Origin: a virus
Virus record (IMG/VR): IMGVR_UViG_3300032117_000067
Coordinates: 1-39,386 of that record
Direction: 5' to 3' (one strand)
Length of the DNA stretch: 39,386 nt
Shown here: piece by piece, positions 22,944 through 32,140 of the stretch
Layout of the letters: the number at the start of each line of letters is the position of its first letter
Position numbering within the stretch: the stretch's first letter is position 1
The notes under the pieces: model-generated
Database searches by the model: none
The model's input: only the letters and a program-made list of their open reading frames with translations
What the model was told of the DNA's origin: nothing
Translations under genes and position numbers: made by a program

Positions 22944-25073
22944 CTACGGGGCTTGAGTTTGCTGTCGGGCAGCAGCGGCTTTGGCTTGAATAGCCTGAAG
23001 GTCGCGCTCGTGCTTGGCCTGGGCCAGAGCCTCGTCGCGAGCGAGTTGAGCCATTTGCTGACTATGGGCCTGAAGATCGGAATTATGCTTCAAGGCATCG
23101 AGTTGGGCCTGTTGTTGCATCAGGGTTTGCTTGTGCTGGAACTCTTGCTCTTCCATCTGCATCTGCATTTGGGCTTTTTGCAGATCCGCATTAGCTTGGA
23201 TCTGAGCGACCTGTTCCTGGGCCTGTTCAGAAGGTTTTGGACCTTGCTGGCCCTGAGGCTGTGGAGGCTGCATCTGCTCGATGTATTCTTCGATTTGGCT
23301 GCCGAAGTTATACCTCCGAACGATTGCCAGCATGAATTGTTGGGCCACGCCGAAGGGCATAACGCCCTCCTGAATCAGAGGTCCGAGACCATTGAGAAGT
23401 TGGCTCATGGCATTCATGATGTCAGAGATGTCTTGCTTGTCCTGACTGTTCTCAGAATCAATTGTGGAATTGGTCTCAATGTCGCAGCGATAGCGCAGCC
23501 CAATACTGTCGTGGAGGAGTTTTTGAAGATCTTCCCAACTTGGCATTTGAAGAGCCTGAGCAATCTGCGGAGGAAGCTGCGGAGGTGGCGGGGTTTGAGG
23601 AGCAGGTGCTGGCGGTTGCCCAGGGATTTGTGGTGGCTGGTGGGCCTGCATCGTCGCAACGGTCTGCTGGTACTGCCCCATCAGCTCCTGGTGTTTGGAA
23701 GTGATCTGGGCTTTTTCGTTATCTGTCAGATAAGGAAGTCCTGTCATCTGGCGAAGAGTTTGGATATCAAATTTCGCTGCAGCGATCTCCAGCATAATCG
23801 CCATGCAGTCACGGCAATATCGCTGAACTTCCTTCTGCATCCGACGAAGCCGAAAAGTCCCCCATTGGTTTTTTAATTGCTGCGCAGTTGCGGTTTCGGA
23901 AGCCACGCTGGCCCCGCGGAGAATATCAGAAATCCCCGTAATCTCATAGATCACATTCTTGACTTGCTCGCGTTGGCTGTACAGCTGTTGCGCTGTCGCG
24001 GCCAGATCATTGATCGGAACTGTCCAGATCAGCTGATCCATCCCTGTCCCATCTGGCATAGATTGAACATTCTCGACAGGAATCAGTTCATTGTCATCTG
24101 CTTGAAGAACTTTGTCAATCCCTTCAATAGTGTTGTTATACATGCCACGGTACTTGATAGCCCGGATGATGGCCTTCAATCGAATTGTAAGGTTGTTCAG
24201 CTCTTGAGCCTGGCTGCGGTAGTACTGATACAGCGGTGTCGGAATCAGTGTCGTAACCTTCTTCGTGAAGTTCAGCGGCTTCGGAACAGGGAAGAAGCCC
24301 AATAGCCCGAAAGGGTCTTCGACGATTTTCAACGGACCCTGCTTGTAAACTGGCGAGAAGAACATGATCTTTTTCTCGGATTTATCCCAAATCTCATAGA
24401 CCTTGAAACTCATCACGCCGGCAAGTTCGTCGTTCTCGGACTTGTCTTTAGCTGATTGCTCAGAATCCCCCATGTAGGAAGTATCTGTGAAATCAATCTT
24501 TACATCAGGGAAGTTGGATTTGATCTCATCCTGATCCATATCCCATTCGAAGCCAATCCAAGGGACTTTTTTCCAGCTTCTGGCATAGCCGTGGAAGAAC
24601 TTGTCCCAGCGAGCTGCTTCACCAAAGACCGCTTCGGAAGCCTTTCCGCCATCAACATACTTGAACCTCGTCACCCCGCGATTGACCAGGAGGCCCTCGA
24701 GAACTGCCTGAGTAATCGTATCATCGAAGGTGTCATAGGCTTCGGAATCTGCCTCGACGAGGTACTTCAGTGTCCGGGTGCCAACTTCGCTGACAATTTT
24801 CCCAATCGGGTCGGCATCTTTGAACCTCCGAAGCACCATCGGAATCGGGGTTTGAGAATAAACTGCCGGGATAAGCGTTTCCGTGTTCGAGTACAGAATC
24901 GCGAAGGGGGTTTCATCAGGCTTCTTTGCCTCGTAGATGTCGATGATCTGTCGACTGGTATCCCGATAAGTTTTCTCCCTTTTCAGTGCTGAGAGAATCT
25001 CCCCATTCCAGAAGGAGTAAAGAGCTTCGCCGCCTTTGGGAGGGATAACTTCTCCAGGATTTGTTTCAGACAC
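22944..25073 (-). CDS. Portal protein
   Basis: 709 residues from GTG 25073, which overlaps the terminase stop by 8 bases and has AGGAAG upstream. The longer frame to 25139 would lie inside the terminase gene. The N-terminal part has portal features (ALYSFWNGEILSALKREKTYRDTSRQ, overall), and a central region TPLYQYYRSQAQELNNLTIRLKA is typical of podovirus portals. After ~residue 480 comes a Pro/Gln-rich stretch (PPQIPGQPPAPAPQTPPPPQ). A long Gln/Ala helical tail follows, which could form the barrel inside the head, as in P22 gp1. It makes the dodecameric DNA channel and the terminase and adaptor dock. Confidence 0.88.
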   Translation of the reverse strand: MSETNPGEVIPPKGGEALYSFWNGEILSALKREKTYRDTSRQIIDIYEAKKPDETPFAILYSNTETLIPAVYSQTPIPMVLRRFKDADPIGKIVSEVGTRTLKYLVEADSEAYDTFDDTITQAVLEGLLVNRGVTRFKYVDGGKASEAVFGEAARWDKFFHGYARSWKKVPWIGFEWDMDQDEIKSNFPDVKIDFTDTSYMGDSEQSAKDKSENDELAGVMSFKVYEIWDKSEKKIMFFSPVYKQGPLKIVEDPFGLLGFFPVPKPLNFTKKVTTLIPTPLYQYYRSQAQELNNLTIRLKAIIRAIKYRGMYNNTIEGIDKVLQADDNELIPVENVQSMPDGTGMDQLIWTVPINDLAATAQQLYSQREQVKNVIYEITGISDILRGASVASETATAQQLKNQWGTFRLRRMQKEVQRYCRDCMAIMLEIAAAKFDIQTLRQMTGLPYLTDNEKAQITSKHQELMGQYQQTVATMQAHQPPQIPGQPPAPAPQTPPPPQLPPQIAQALQMPSWEDLQKLLHDSIGLRYRCDIETNSTIDSENSQDKQDISDIMNAMSQLLNGLGPLIQEGVMPFGVAQQFMLAIVRRYNFGSQIEEYIEQMQPPQPQGQQGPKPSEQAQEQVAQIQANADLQKAQMQMQMEEQEFQHKQTLMQQQAQLDALKHNSDLQAHSQQMAQLARDEALAQAKHERDLQAIQAKAAAARQQTQAP

Positions 25074-26547
25074 GGGCTTCTTCCTTTTGTAAGCGTTTGC
25101 GCTTGTTCTGTTCAACGAGTTCAGAGATTGTAAGTTCATTCGGGAGTTTAGGGAGCCGGAGCTTCTGTGGGCCTAGAGATAACTTCGGCTTCCAGGGCCT
25201 AGACATACAAGCATAGCGGACTTCATCTGCTACGTGGTCTTCACCATCGGTGTCGAGGTCTTCCATGTTTCCATCGTCATGCTGAAGAATAGGAATAGTT
25301 CGGATGAAGTCTTCGCAGTTATCTGCGATGTACATCATCGGGATGCCATTTTCTCCGACGAGTCGCTGGCGGAATTGTTCCCAGCCTGGCTGACGCTTGT
25401 TGTCGGCCCGCCGCCACTTACAAGCTTTCATACTCTCAGCAATTGAAGGCCCACCATTCCTAATAAATATCGCGGGATCAGCAACTGCGAACCTAATTCG
25501 CTCCTCATGCTCGAAGTCCAGAATCCCTCGACTAACAGCATCGGCTGTCATCAAGAGCCCCTTATTCGGCCCAGAAGCCCCATACCATTCCCGATAGCGG
25601 AAGATCGCTCCGAAGGGGAGCGGATTCTCCCTAGGCCAGGTTCCATCGGCAATCGCCCACCAACCGACTGAGAAGGGTCTTGCCGACCCCCAGTCGAATG
25701 AGCGGAAGCGAACTGTCTGCGGAGGAGCTTCCTTGAGAATCTTTGCTGATCTGCAGTGAAGTTCCTCGTTAAACTCTTGGAAAAAGGCCCCATCAACGAT
25801 GTCCCAGTTGCCCTCAAGCCAGGCTTTGACCAGAGCTGCGGAGCCTGACTGTCGGAGCCTGAGAACATAGGTCGGATCATTCCGCATTAGAAGTGTGTTA
25901 TCCCCAAGCTTTGAGGGTATGAAAACCCTGCTCAGAGAGACCTCCATCTTCTCGCCTTCGACTTCGATAATCTCAGTCTCAGTGATGATTTTATAGCCTC
26001 TCGGCTCTGGATCGATATATCTCCGCTTTACCCACCCATGTCCAGGACCCCCAGGATTGCCAGTAAGCCGCATTCCGACAGGAACACCAGAACCAGAACG
26101 CAAAGTAGCACGAAGTTTGTCAATCGGACTGGACGATGGGAAGTTAGTGACTTCCTCCACATATACGCGTGTATAGTTGTGGCCCTGGTATTCCTCGGCA
26201 TCCGAATCCCTTTCGAGATAAACGAATTTAAGCCGTCCACCGCCGGGCATCTTCCATTCGGCTTTTTGCTCATTGTATTTCGCGCCTATCTTCGGAAAAA
26301 GAATTTTGGTTCGCGCAATGACTTCTGCAAGTTGCTTGAACTTTCTCCGAACAAAAATTCCAATTGCCGCTTCACCATAAGTTGATGAGTGCTCAAGCCA
26401 ATCTCCGATAGAGCTTTCAGTTTTTCCTCCCCCACGAGCGCCTCCGTAGAATACTTCGAAAACAGGGCATTGGATCAAAGCGGTTTGTGGGCCTTCTTGA
26501 GGAGTCCAGAGGACTTCTTTCCCATCCATGAGCAACGGTTGGGCCAT
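25066..26547 (-). CDS. terL: Terminase large subunit
   Basis: 493 residues from ATG 26547, with AAGGA 6 bases upstream, 3 bases after the small-subunit stop. The ATPase shows Walker A GGARGGGKT (35-43) and a Walker B-like RVYVEEVTNF. The RNase H-type nuclease has acidic residues in RSFDWGSARPF, FAVADPAIF and DHVADEVRYACM. It cuts concatemeric DNA and pumps it into the procapsid through the portal. Packaging mode cannot be read from one genome. The terminal overlap fits headful (pac) packaging or simple circular assembly. Confidence 0.93.
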   Translation of the reverse strand: MAQPLLMDGKEVLWTPQEGPQTALIQCPVFEVFYGGARGGGKTESSIGDWLEHSSTYGEAAIGIFVRRKFKQLAEVIARTKILFPKIGAKYNEQKAEWKMPGGGRLKFVYLERDSDAEEYQGHNYTRVYVEEVTNFPSSSPIDKLRATLRSGSGVPVGMRLTGNPGGPGHGWVKRRYIDPEPRGYKIITETEIIEVEGEKMEVSLSRVFIPSKLGDNTLLMRNDPTYVLRLRQSGSAALVKAWLEGNWDIVDGAFFQEFNEELHCRSAKILKEAPPQTVRFRSFDWGSARPFSVGWWAIADGTWPRENPLPFGAIFRYREWYGASGPNKGLLMTADAVSRGILDFEHEERIRFAVADPAIFIRNGGPSIAESMKACKWRRADNKRQPGWEQFRQRLVGENGIPMMYIADNCEDFIRTIPILQHDDGNMEDLDTDGEDHVADEVRYACMSRPWKPKLSLGPQKLRLPKLPNELTISELVEQNKRKRLQKEEARV

Positions 26548-26550
26548 GGA

Positions 26551-27201
26551 TTATCCTTCTATTACCCGGCCTGCGTGCTGGCGGGCCCACTGGTTCGGAT
26601 CTTCCATCTTCGGAGGCAGTGGAATAACGAAGTTGTTATTGATATTCGTCATCGGGGCTCTAGCACCAAAACCAAGAGCCTTTGTCGTGACTTTCAATGC
26701 CTCCAGAGCCAAGTCTGGGTTCTGCGTCGCATGAAGTTTCTCAGCCAGGATATCCAGACTCTGCATAGCAAGCCCGTTCATACGCTCTTCAATCGTGGCT
26801 ATGAGAAAAGGGTCAGTGACCTCCTCCCGACGCTTGGCCAAAGCCGCCTGAAAAGCATCCGAACCCATGATTCGGGAAATCCAGGGTACTGAACGATCGA
26901 AGGTTTTTGCCAGTTCATTCTGCGTTATGGCAGGGTTCGCTATAATCACATCGATCATAGCTTCATGATTGTACTTCGTCTTCGCAATACGAGAGTAGCT
27001 TTGGTCATAGCCCTTGGCAGTGGCTATTCCAGCATACTTTGGATGGTCGAGAGGATAGAAGGTCCTTCCATTGACCTCAATCCCTCCATCAGGAAGAGTC
27101 TCCGCACCTTCCGTATCGCAGGCATCGAGGTACTCAGTGTAAAAGAAGGGATGGCGGGCCTCGATCCCTTCCGTCATCTTGTCATAATCCACAAAGCTCA
27201 T
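26551..27201 (-). CDS. terS: Terminase small subunit
   Basis: 216 residues from ATG 27201, with AGAGG 7 bases upstream. A helix-turn-helix-like segment is visible at about residues 84-122 (MIDVIIANPAITQNELAKTFDR, overall, then SVPWISRIMGSDAFQAALA). Helical oligomerisation segments follow (ERMNGLAMQSLDILAEKLH). It precedes terL directly. It would recognise the packaging start site, which in many phages lies in or beside terS; the repeat-rich region just upstream is a candidate. First gene of the leftward late block. Confidence 0.82.
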   Translation of the reverse strand: MSFVDYDKMTEGIEARHPFFYTEYLDACDTEGAETLPDGGIEVNGRTFYPLDHPKYAGIATAKGYDQSYSRIAKTKYNHEAMIDVIIANPAITQNELAKTFDRSVPWISRIMGSDAFQAALAKRREEVTDPFLIATIEERMNGLAMQSLDILAEKLHATQNPDLALEALKVTTKALGFGARAPMTNINNNFVIPLPPKMEDPNQWARQHAGRVIEG

Positions 27202-27313: not shown

Positions 27314-27439
27314 TTAATTTCGGAGGCTTTTGGCTGGAAATTCTACCACCTTTTCCACCACTCAGCTGACCAGAAAGAGGGAGTTGGAAAATTTGGCCCA
27401 AGTGTAGCGAGTGGAGAGCCGTTAACATCGCCCCCTGGA

Positions 27440-28125
27440 CCATCCCCCTGCCGGCTTGCCACCCCCGGCCTTAACTCTACCCGGATGGTAGACAAGGCCG
27501 AAAGAACCGGATTGGTTCAAGGGTGGAGGGAAAGGAACCGGAATGGTGAGGCAGTCACGATTGGAATGGGAGGCGTCGCGGGGTAGCCGGGATGGGGTAG
27601 GAATGGCTGGGTAGTAGGTAGCGGGGATGGATAACGGGTTAGGCAGCCGGATAGACGAGGGGCGAGAGGATGGCGAGCCAGACAACGGCTGGGGGTGCGA
27701 GGCGAGGGGCGAGAGGTAGCTGGATCGGTGTCGAGAGGCCGGGCGGGATGCCGGGGGTAGCGGGATGGATAGCAGGGAGCGGCTGAGGTCAACGGGGGTT
27801 TGGCTGGAGAGGTCAGTTATCCTAGTATTTCCAATCCATTTTTTTTTTAGAAGGAACCACCCCCCGTGAGAACGCAAAACCTCCGGGGGATTAGGGTGAG
27901 CCCTGTTGTTCTATCCGCTACGGATGGGGATGCGGGTGAGGGTCTAGAAATGACACATGGGGGGCTAGGGGCATACTCAGGGGATTGGACAGGATCGGAG
28001 CCGGGGAGGGGAGGGAGCCGGGGAGGGAATAGGGCGAATTTGCCAATCTCCGGGGCGTGGAGAGGGTTTAGAGGGGTGGAGGCTATAGGGGTAGCGGCGA
28101 GGGTGAGAGGCTATTGAGAGGGCCG
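27440..28125. other. Strongly G-skewed non-coding region between divergent blocks
   Basis: The stretch 27202-28226 has no convincing gene; most of it is one strand-asymmetric block. In 27601-27660 I count 28 G and 7 C, and in 27961-28020 about 32 G and 10 C. It is full of GGG/GGGG runs and imperfect repeats (GTAGCGGGGATGGATA near 27617, GTAGCGGGATGGATA near 27757). An exact 14-base repeat, CGAGGGGCGAGAGG, occurs at 27656 and 27703. Open frames here on either strand encode only low-complexity Pro/Ser or Gly/Arg peptides. Possible roles: replication origin or R-loop zone when transcribed rightward, Rho-use site when transcribed leftward, or a packaging site beside terS. Confidence 0.6.
27800..27828 (+). 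promoter_or_regulatory. Candidate rightward promoter into the G-rich region
   Basis: TTGGCT (27800-27805), 17 bases, then TAGTAT (27823-27828); each box matches the sigma70 consensus at 4 of 6 positions. A run of ten T and AGAAGGAACC follow. Transcription from here would make a G-rich RNA over 27840-28125 with no good gene. That could indicate a non-coding RNA or an origin transcript. Confidence 0.3.
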
Positions 28126-28172
28126 GAGATTGTTGCGCGGTTTTGTAATAATGTTGCTTGGAGACCTGAGCA

Positions 28173-28205
28173 CAAAAAACCCGGCGATGGGGGGCATCGC
28201 CGGGT
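28173..28205 (-). terminator. Intrinsic terminator of the leftward mini-operon
   Basis: A perfect 11-bp stem ACCCGGCGATG (28179-28189) with CATCGCCGGGT (28195-28205) and a GGGGG loop. Read leftward it is followed by TTTTTGTG. It lies 21 bases past the stop of the last mini-operon gene (28227). Read rightward no T-run follows, so it acts only leftward. Confidence 0.92.
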
Positions 28206-28226
28206 GAGGTTAGGGACTGGGAGAGG

Positions 28227-28496
28227 TTAAAATCCGGAGTATGACAAATTCTCAAAATACTCCCTGAACCATGCAACGGCAGGTTGATCGGGCCAAAATT
28301 CGGTGAGCTTTTCCCAACCCTTCTCACCCCAGAACGCAAGGGTCATTCCGATAGTGTCCATCCAATTGTCGGCCCATTCGGTAGGAGAGCAGGTGAGGCC
28401 AAAGGCCAGACAATAAAGCTCGTCAACGATAATGAGTTTACGACCTTGGTAGACCTCACCTGTGAAACGGTTTTTAAGAACGAGATAGGCAGCCAT
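28227..28496 (-). CDS. Small protein of unknown function, last gene of the leftward mini-operon
   Basis: 89 residues from ATG 28496, with AGGGA upstream. The sequence is rich in Trp and aromatic residues (PTEWADNWMDTIGMTLAFWG, overall, then WEKLTEFWPDQPAVAWFREYF). It begins MAAYLVLKNRFTGEVYQGRK, which looks like a small beta-hairpin start. No family recognised. It is separated by about 60 bases from the paralogue gene upstream and ends just before a strong terminator. Probably a small globular protein expressed early. Confidence 0.65.
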   Translation of the reverse strand: MAAYLVLKNRFTGEVYQGRKLIIVDELYCLAFGLTCSPTEWADNWMDTIGMTLAFWGEKGWEKLTEFWPDQPAVAWFREYFENLSYSGF

Positions 28497-28555
28497 TGGA
28501 AAATTTCCCTAAGTGAGAGGTTGGCTAGGGCCGGAAAAACCCTAGCCAGAGAGGG

Positions 28556-29065
28556 TTAGAACAAATCTCCCAGCAACGCATCGGTGTCGATGGGGGTTTT
28601 CGGGGCCCCGCGTTCGATCTTGAGGGTTTCGATAATCTCCGCGATCCGGGGCACGTTGCGGAGAGCGAGCTGCTCCGAACGGGTTTTGGAGTCATAGAGG
28701 GCCTTGATCTTTTCGGCGGTTGGCGGGGTTTTGGCTTTTTTGGCGATTGCCTGCTCATTGGCCCATTGCTCAAATGCACGGAGAATCAGGCCGGAAACCG
28801 GGCTGGTTCCATCGCTAGAGCGTTTTGACCATTCGCCGTTGATAAGGTTGTCCCGAACGGCCGTCATAGCGGCAAATTTGTCGGTTTCGGTTGCACCCTT
28901 GGTCATAGCGGCTGCATCGCAAATTTTTTGCCGGAGGCCATGGAGCAGGGCGAGATTATGGACCTCCTCGGAGAGGGTGTTGGCGTCGATGGAGAGATTG
29001 CCAACACCTTCGATAGCAATCGAGAGAGTGGAACCAGTGATGGTGGTTTTGATAATACGTGCCAT
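28556..29065 (-). CDS. Unknown-function phage protein; diverged paralogue of the 31523 gene
   Basis: 169 residues from ATG 29065, with AAAAGGA 8 bases upstream. It aligns over most of its length with the rightward gene at 31523-32140. Shared features include LHGLRQKICDAAA (HGAEQKLGDAIA in the other), LINGEWSKR (LEEGEWNVAR), EKIKALYDSKTRSEQLALR (EQIKAFLDTKSAAEKLALR) and the identical IDTDALLGDLF, which is the very C-terminus here. The N-terminus is a small beta part (IIKTTITGSTLSIAIEG). Function unknown. The conserved tail looks like a docking peptide. Two diverged copies on opposite strands in one small genome suggest non-redundant roles. Confidence 0.75.
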   Translation of the reverse strand: MARIIKTTITGSTLSIAIEGVGNLSIDANTLSEEVHNLALLHGLRQKICDAAAMTKGATETDKFAAMTAVRDNLINGEWSKRSSDGTSPVSGLILRAFEQWANEQAIAKKAKTPPTAEKIKALYDSKTRSEQLALRNVPRIAEIIETLKIERGAPKTPIDTDALLGDLF

Positions 29066-31522: not shown

Positions 31523-32140
31523 ATGACCGAAGCTGCCAAAACCCCTGCCGCCTCCAAGACCGAAAAGACCCCGATCACAATGTCGGATGGTCGGATCGTT
31601 GACTTCACTGCCAAGCAGAAACTCGTCAAGGAAAGCCTGATCAATCCCGAAACCGGCGTCATCATCACGCGCCTGGACTTCCGTAACGGCCAGACCCGCT
31701 CGCTGACAATCCCCGAAAACATGATCCTTCGCTTCGCAGCCCACGGCGCGGAACAAAAGCTCGGTGACGCAATCGCCGGCGAGAAGGACTTCGACGACGC
31801 TGTTCTGGCCGTTGAAGCCCTGATCAAGCGCCTGGAAGAAGGCGAATGGAACGTCGCGCGCGAAGCCGGAGCCTTCACCGGAACTTCCATCCTGCTCCGG
31901 GCTCTCGTCGAAGTCTCGGGCAAGACTGTCGAGCAGATCAAGGCCTTCCTCGATACCAAGTCGGCGGCCGAAAAGCTTGCTCTCCGTCGCTCTGCCAAGC
32001 TCGAACCGACCATCAAGAAGCTCGAAGCCGAGAAGGCTGCCAAGTCCGGCAACAAGATCGACACCGATGCGCTGCTTGGTGATCTGTTCGGGGACGAGCC
32101 GGAAGCCGAAACCCCGGCCCACAAGCACACGAAGAAGTAA
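31523..32140 (+). CDS. Highly expressed early protein of unknown function; paralogue of the 28556 gene
   Basis: 205 residues from ATG 31523, with AAAGGA upstream. Promoter at 31452 and terminator at 32227 make it a single-gene transcript. Strongly biased codons (GAC, GCC, CTG, ATC, AAG) suggest high expression. It aligns with the leftward 28556-29065 product from HGAEQKLGDAIAG to IDTDALLGDLF, but carries an extra ~17-residue charged tail (GDEPEAETPAHKHTKK). The N-terminus has an extra segment with a small beta part (RIVDFTAKQKLV, VIITRLDFRNGQTRSL). Function unknown. Expression style would suit a DNA-binding or host-takeover protein. Confidence 0.75.
   Translation: MTEAAKTPAASKTEKTPITMSDGRIVDFTAKQKLVKESLINPETGVIITRLDFRNGQTRSLTIPENMILRFAAHGAEQKLGDAIAGEKDFDDAVLAVEALIKRLEEGEWNVAREAGAFTGTSILLRALVEVSGKTVEQIKAFLDTKSAAEKLALRRSAKLEPTIKKLEAEKAAKSGNKIDTDALLGDLFGDEPEAETPAHKHTKK

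Follow-up and report, generated by a model that had tools for sequence, protein, structure and literature searches.

Genes and features at the locus

The window, by which we mean the whole stretch of DNA analysed here, is the virus record IMGVR_UViG_3300032117_000067 (39,386 bases), at whose ends no exact terminal repeat of at least 10 bases was found. Its late block follows the order terS (26551-27201), terL, portal, all leftward. The features of the locus, all on the minus strand (late sense), are as follows.

25066-26547, minus strand: terL, large terminase (PHROG phrog_2, E 3e-35)
26551-27201, minus strand: terS, small terminase (assignment from position, conservation, predicted HTH and helical hairpin)
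27404-27467, minus strand: conserved single-copy G-box element, candidate packaging/late-control site (held-out profile, alignment of 46, 53 loci)
27483-28243, minus strand: strand-asymmetric noncoding tract, C-rich and G-poor in late sense, G-rich on the plus strand (maximal-scoring segment)
27495-27830, minus strand: terminase-proximal arm of the tract, a rut-like cluster (C/G at least 3)
27839-27848, minus strand: A10 run (T10 on the plus strand), in the AT-rich island 27811-27910
27921-28166, minus strand: distal arm of the tract, a rut-like cluster
28179-28205, minus strand: strong intrinsic terminator bordering the tract on its 5' side (11-bp stem followed by TTTTT)
28227-28496, minus strand: small leftward ORF preceding the tract
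28556-29065, minus strand: conserved early gene oriented toward terS, with an inverted homologue in the second clade

The earlier note had placed the G-rich region between divergent gene blocks. In fact, the genes on both of its sides (28227-29065 and terS) are leftward; divergence occurs at about 29.6-30.1 kb and rightward genes begin only near 30.1 kb. Thus, the RNA likely to cross the tract is the leftward one. The TerS candidate has a predicted HTH (residues 72-112) followed by helices (115-175). A structure search with it returned chiefly HTH regulators at low scores (best 2ao9, Z 7.8), as well as the PaP3 TerS (6w7t) at Z 5.3, under the trust limit, and weak HTH family matches were obtained for some members of the TerS family. 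Two early proteins, encoded at 28556-29065 (minus strand) and 31523-32140 (plus strand), each match the other's homologue in relatives with about 30-36% identity and look like paralogues; both are conserved group-wide and have no PHROG match.

That no gene explains the tract, as had been proposed, is borne out. ORFs inside it have no Pfam family match, and its longest stop-free length (146 codons) is that of shuffled sequence (143±41), which together speak against a protein-coding tract. A known RNA family or large structured phage ncRNA is rejected as well, no Rfam family reaching its gathering score in the tract (single sub-threshold match, E 1.2). No DNA homologue of the region was found by blastn among deposited phages, and no description of such a region was found in the literature searched.

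Extent and strength of the asymmetry

On its plus strand, the tract contains 331 G for 122 C. It is the largest G-minus-C segment of the genome, and the most skewed window at both 300 and 650 bases. Its segment score is 148, as compared with 30.4±7.0 (maximum 56.8) in 60 order-2 Markov genomes and with 25 for the runner-up C-over-G segment of the same genome. The asymmetry is therefore beyond chance and the strongest in the genome. An excess of G over C of about fourfold had been announced for 27440-28125. The excess is real, but the ratio measured over these positions is 2.29. The skew is reversed in the first 78 bases (27440-27517). The ratio amounts to 2.77 over 27518-28168, and values of 3.2-3.5 are confined to the two arms of the tract, at 27515-27810 and 27911-28168, which are separated by the unskewed AT-rich island. 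The many GGG runs are confirmed, with 38 runs of at least GGG against 2 of at least CCC in 27518-28168. Imperfect repeats do exist, but they are few and short, and are what low-complexity DNA yields.

The late-sense strand is on average G-rich genome-wide, with a mean skew of +0.06 that holds for early as well as late regions and whatever the gene direction, so that the tract is a local reversal of this general tendency. A 16.6-kb contig identical to the window (L020, or G001) stops at a duplicated GGAGCCGGGGAGGG repeat within the tract (window position 28006), which is probably an assembly break.

Related phage contigs were gathered by TerS, TerL and portal searches. Among them are three near-complete contigs, G003, G004 (whose ends overlap by 121 bases) and G005, together with MW202489, a deposited circular genome. 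In all five genomes, counting the window, the top late-sense C-over-G segment occupies the same location before terS (scores 148, 98, 96, 86 and 40).

A conserved element upstream of terS

A second feature, of about 75 bp, recurs in these phages. Its late-sense consensus is roughly GGGGGTGGG(tcaa).CCGGCAGGCGGGGG(tcg)......GGGTGTTTAG.GGCAT..CC.C. The window copy lies at the edge of the region originally pointed out and outside the G-rich tract. A held-out profile, built without the five reference genomes (the window, G003, G004, G005 and MW202489), finds exactly one element in each of them, always 5' of terS, with E values of 0.004 for the window and of 2e-9 to 2e-8 for the other four; nothing significant was found in the reversed sequences of the same genomes. 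One copy, always on the terS strand, is also present in each of 53 terL-selected loci, a count that is only descriptive because most of these loci contributed to the profile, the held-out test being that of the five genomes. In the 53 loci, the position of the element varies: it may overlap the estimated start of terS or lie as far as 640 bp upstream. Among loci with at least 450 bp upstream of terS, only L041 and L022 have no match, and L022 is a fragment identical to the window whose match falls just under the threshold.

Two blind pattern scans were also made. The first returned two loci, both already known. The second returned eight stretches, corresponding to five known loci, one new terS/terL locus (L105) and two stretches without terS (L107 and L110); these last two matches probably fall within coding sequence rich in glycine. 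The consensus fold of the element is empty, and a conserved RNA structure is rejected for it. In MW202489 (L013), an annotated hypothetical CDS (249-527) overlaps the element (337-412); this CDS is probably spurious.

With its single copy per genome and its linkage to terS, the element is placed as a pac or cos site would be, and terminase sites 5' of terS or overlapping it are usual in published systems. The proposal of the earlier note that a packaging site lies near terS is, to this extent, supported by the element at 27404-27467, and we infer that TerS would recognise it. The element could equally be explained as a late promoter or operator.

Two architectures and the polarity of the tract

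When 37 phages are aligned on the element, the mean late-sense skew is negative from about -800 to -5, weaker near -350, and then flips abruptly. In many phages, the C-rich segments stop 1-16 bp from the element. Outside the element, composition is kept across relatives and sequence is variable.

Two gene arrangements are found upstream. In the window's clade, the early gene points at terS in 13 phages, and the gap of 0.8-1.9 kb between this gene and the element is filled by the C-rich tract. Nine of these 13 phages have one to three intrinsic terminators in the gap on the late-sense strand, and none has any on the other strand; the terminator at 28179-28205 has counterparts in 8 of the 12 other clade members. 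The early gene has the opposite orientation in 27 phages, almost all of them from a second clade; its distance to the element is there 165-800 bp in most cases. The inverted arrangement is seen in L005, L049-L095 and MW202489, as opposed to the window, G003-G005 and L025-L046. In both orientations, the stretch past the stop codon of the early gene is C-rich in the gene's own sense. Over the 300-400 nt past this stop, G is lower than C in 92% and 91% of phages for the two orientations, the phages being related and the counts hence not independent. The signal is weaker in the inverted clade (mean skew about -0.2 over 200-400 nt). Because the C-rich stretch inverts with the early gene, its polarity tracks the direction of transcription more than the genome strand.

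Composition that stays constant while sequence varies, in DNA of low complexity, is also what would be expected of a functionless noncoding spacer drifting under mutational asymmetry. We consider such a by-product very improbable. The position and polarity of the tract are common to the five genomes and to most of the 37 phages, and other intergenic DNA is unskewed: the value is -0.004 for the divergent intergenic region of the window and close to zero in most relatives. Moreover, cytosine deamination is rejected as the cause, as it would raise T and not G, and here G is raised and T is not. The region is a conserved gene-free boundary before the packaging genes, recurring in dozens of related uncultured phages.

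The A-run island and the question of an origin

The A10 run at 27839-27848 is the sole A/T run of at least 8 in the window's genome and sits in the middle of the tract. G003 likewise has a single such run, at its island. About a dozen members of the window's clade carry A/T runs in their islands; G004, G005 and MW202489 lack one at this place. In the second clade, A-runs are found at 1.1-1.6 kb from the element, and both the GC and the AT skew change sign there. No convincing k-mer motif of the island is conserved beyond the A run, which could have a role in DNA bending, as a melting aid or in a promoter. In L076, L029, L043, L068 and L073, short inverted repeats flank the A/T run (for instance CTCTCT..A9..AGAGAG). 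In L078, an A10 run located about 1174 bp upstream of the element precedes tandem 9-base iteron-like repeats (TACAACGG-like), a site which is a possible candidate replication origin.

The tract had been proposed to form an R-loop priming replication, by rightward transcription from a promoter at 27800. In an origin of this kind, the A-run island would melt and the G-rich rightward RNA would form a stable R-loop from which synthesis is primed. Such an RNA would indeed have a strongly G-rich non-template strand, and it is because the only A10 run of the genome sits mid-tract that this origin is still to be weighed; the sign change of both skews at the A-run in the second clade and the repeats of L078 point the same way. 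It should, however, be noted that no sigma-70-like site scoring at least 9/12, the promoter type that was scored, is present at 27800 (the region contains 5 such sites, as compared with 3.1±1.6 expected), and that the region has neither a rightward gene needing a promoter nor a rightward terminator. The A-run is absent from three of the reference islands, as said above. Furthermore, the cumulative skew does not place an origin here, the detrended late-sense minimum being 13.1-14.6 kb away from the element in the window, G004, G005 and MW202489, and only in G003 as near as 3 kb, in a test where gene composition confounds phage skew. A skew minimum elsewhere is among the outcomes that the earlier note had itself named as refuting, and it is thus observed in four of the five genomes. 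Altogether, the proposal draws weak support, and an R-loop origin appears improbable. A clade-wide module, in which tract, A-run and element would together form the start of replication and that of packaging or late expression, is no less improbable; it may consist of an unwinding island with R-loop-prone arms and of a single-copy element previously undescribed.

The island could also serve transcription in the other direction. Late transcription would start from the A-run island or from the element, and the C-rich RNA would be a leader under the control of a phage antiterminator or activator. In favor of this idea, the late block opens with terS, the A-run could be a UP-like element, the island and its A-run are kept in about a dozen clade members, and the pac site of SPP1 overlaps late promoters and gene 1 (PMC6316719). 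Sigma-70-like sites of at least 9/12 are, however, absent from the minus strand of the region, this type of promoter being the one scored. In addition, the element, present once per genome, is not promoter-like, and no RNA structure is conserved. A late-operon leader or promoter is accordingly quite unlikely.

A possible role in packaging initiation

The whole region may alternatively be a site of packaging initiation, where the element binds TerS in the manner of pac or cosB and where the C-rich tract and the A-run are part of the site, the tract serving for bending, for spacing or as the place where concatemers are cut. The uniqueness of the element and its constant location 5' of terS argue for this, as does the termination of C-rich segments within 16 bp of it. 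In lambda, the cos site likewise brings together a GC-rich nick site, repeated TerS boxes and a bent segment of poly-A (PMC4856287); for the general contrast between cos and pac sites, see PMC9611059. Contig ends are relevant here. Of the 26 contigs exceeding 34 kb, nine stop at most 4 kb upstream of terL, which favors packaging, but they do so at scattered positions, and the 17 others cross the terS region; contigs may, besides, represent replicating DNA or be broken where repeats are GC-rich. The scatter speaks against a single exact end, such as a fixed genome end at the element, and would be accommodated by headful packaging. Also unfavorable are the behavior of the C-rich stretch, which goes with the early gene when this gene is inverted away from the element, and the fact that the tract outside the element shows conserved composition, no conserved sequence being seen there. 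That the entire region serves packaging is therefore unlikely, though it deserves consideration.

A proposed boundary between early and late transcription

The leftward RNA of the tract had been described as C-rich and G-poor, the pattern of Rho loading. Among the earlier proposals, it is this one that best fits the composition, the predicted unpaired RNA, the late-sense terminators at the border and a C-richness oriented as the adjacent early gene is. The two longest rut-like clusters of the late-sense strand are the two arms of the tract, which shows the C-over-G composition and the predicted weak RNA structure expected of rut sites. The unpaired fraction predicted for the late-sense RNA is 0.61-0.73 outside the island and 0.53-0.55 across it, versus 0.41±0.05 elsewhere, a weakness of structure that is largely due to the low G content and hence is not independent evidence. 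The excess is smaller in relatives.

From the sequence, the reading that we tentatively favor is that the tract may be an early/late transcription boundary, made of a terminator and of Rho-loading RNA, and adjoining an element probably used in packaging or late control. The tract would separate the leftward early unit (28227-29065) from the leftward late operon starting at terS. A leftward transcript running past the terminator would become a long untranslated RNA, C-rich and G-poor, to which the host Rho could bind, and Rho would halt early transcription before the element and terS are overrun. The element would be the packaging start for the terminase, of pac or cos type, and might overlap the control of a late promoter. 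The G-richness of the plus strand would merely be the complement of a C-rich RNA under selection.

Several observations speak against such a boundary. The intrinsic terminator at the border of the tract makes Rho seem redundant, a length of 700-1100 nt far exceeds what a rut site needs, and MW202489 has a C-rich stretch, albeit shorter, though it has no leftward gene upstream.

The element is the first candidate packaging or late-control site for this group of uncultured phages, and a single DNA profile recognises it. If it is a pac or cos site, packaging starts would become predictable from metagenomes. Moreover, since the polarity of the boundary follows the early gene, roles in Rho-type insulation, in packaging and in replication initiation can be compared for long skewed noncoding regions of phages.

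Comparison with known systems

Like ColE1-type and phage R-loop origins, the tract has an A run and, for one direction of transcription, a non-template strand rich in G; unlike them, it shows neither a promoter for this direction nor a local skew minimum. The element resembles the pac site of SPP1 (pacL-pacC-pacR) in being unique, beside terS and in the region where the late operon starts. However, the SPP1 site overlaps both gene 1 and the promoters of this gene, whereas the candidate element is 5' of terS. With lambda cos (cosQ-cosN-I2-cosB), the element shares a GC-rich unique site and repeated boxes just 5' of terS, with a poly-A nearby. The sequence of the element nevertheless differs, the contigs have no common end, and the A run is about 380 bp upstream of the boxes, whereas in lambda it separates the nick site from the TerS sites. 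Finally, the tract differs from rut regions and Rho-dependent terminators in its length of several hundred nt, in the A-run island at its middle and in the intrinsic terminator that precedes it. Although the part played by Rho is one that we infer, the tract resembles these regions in giving a C-rich, G-poor, weakly folded and apparently untranslated RNA between transcription units.
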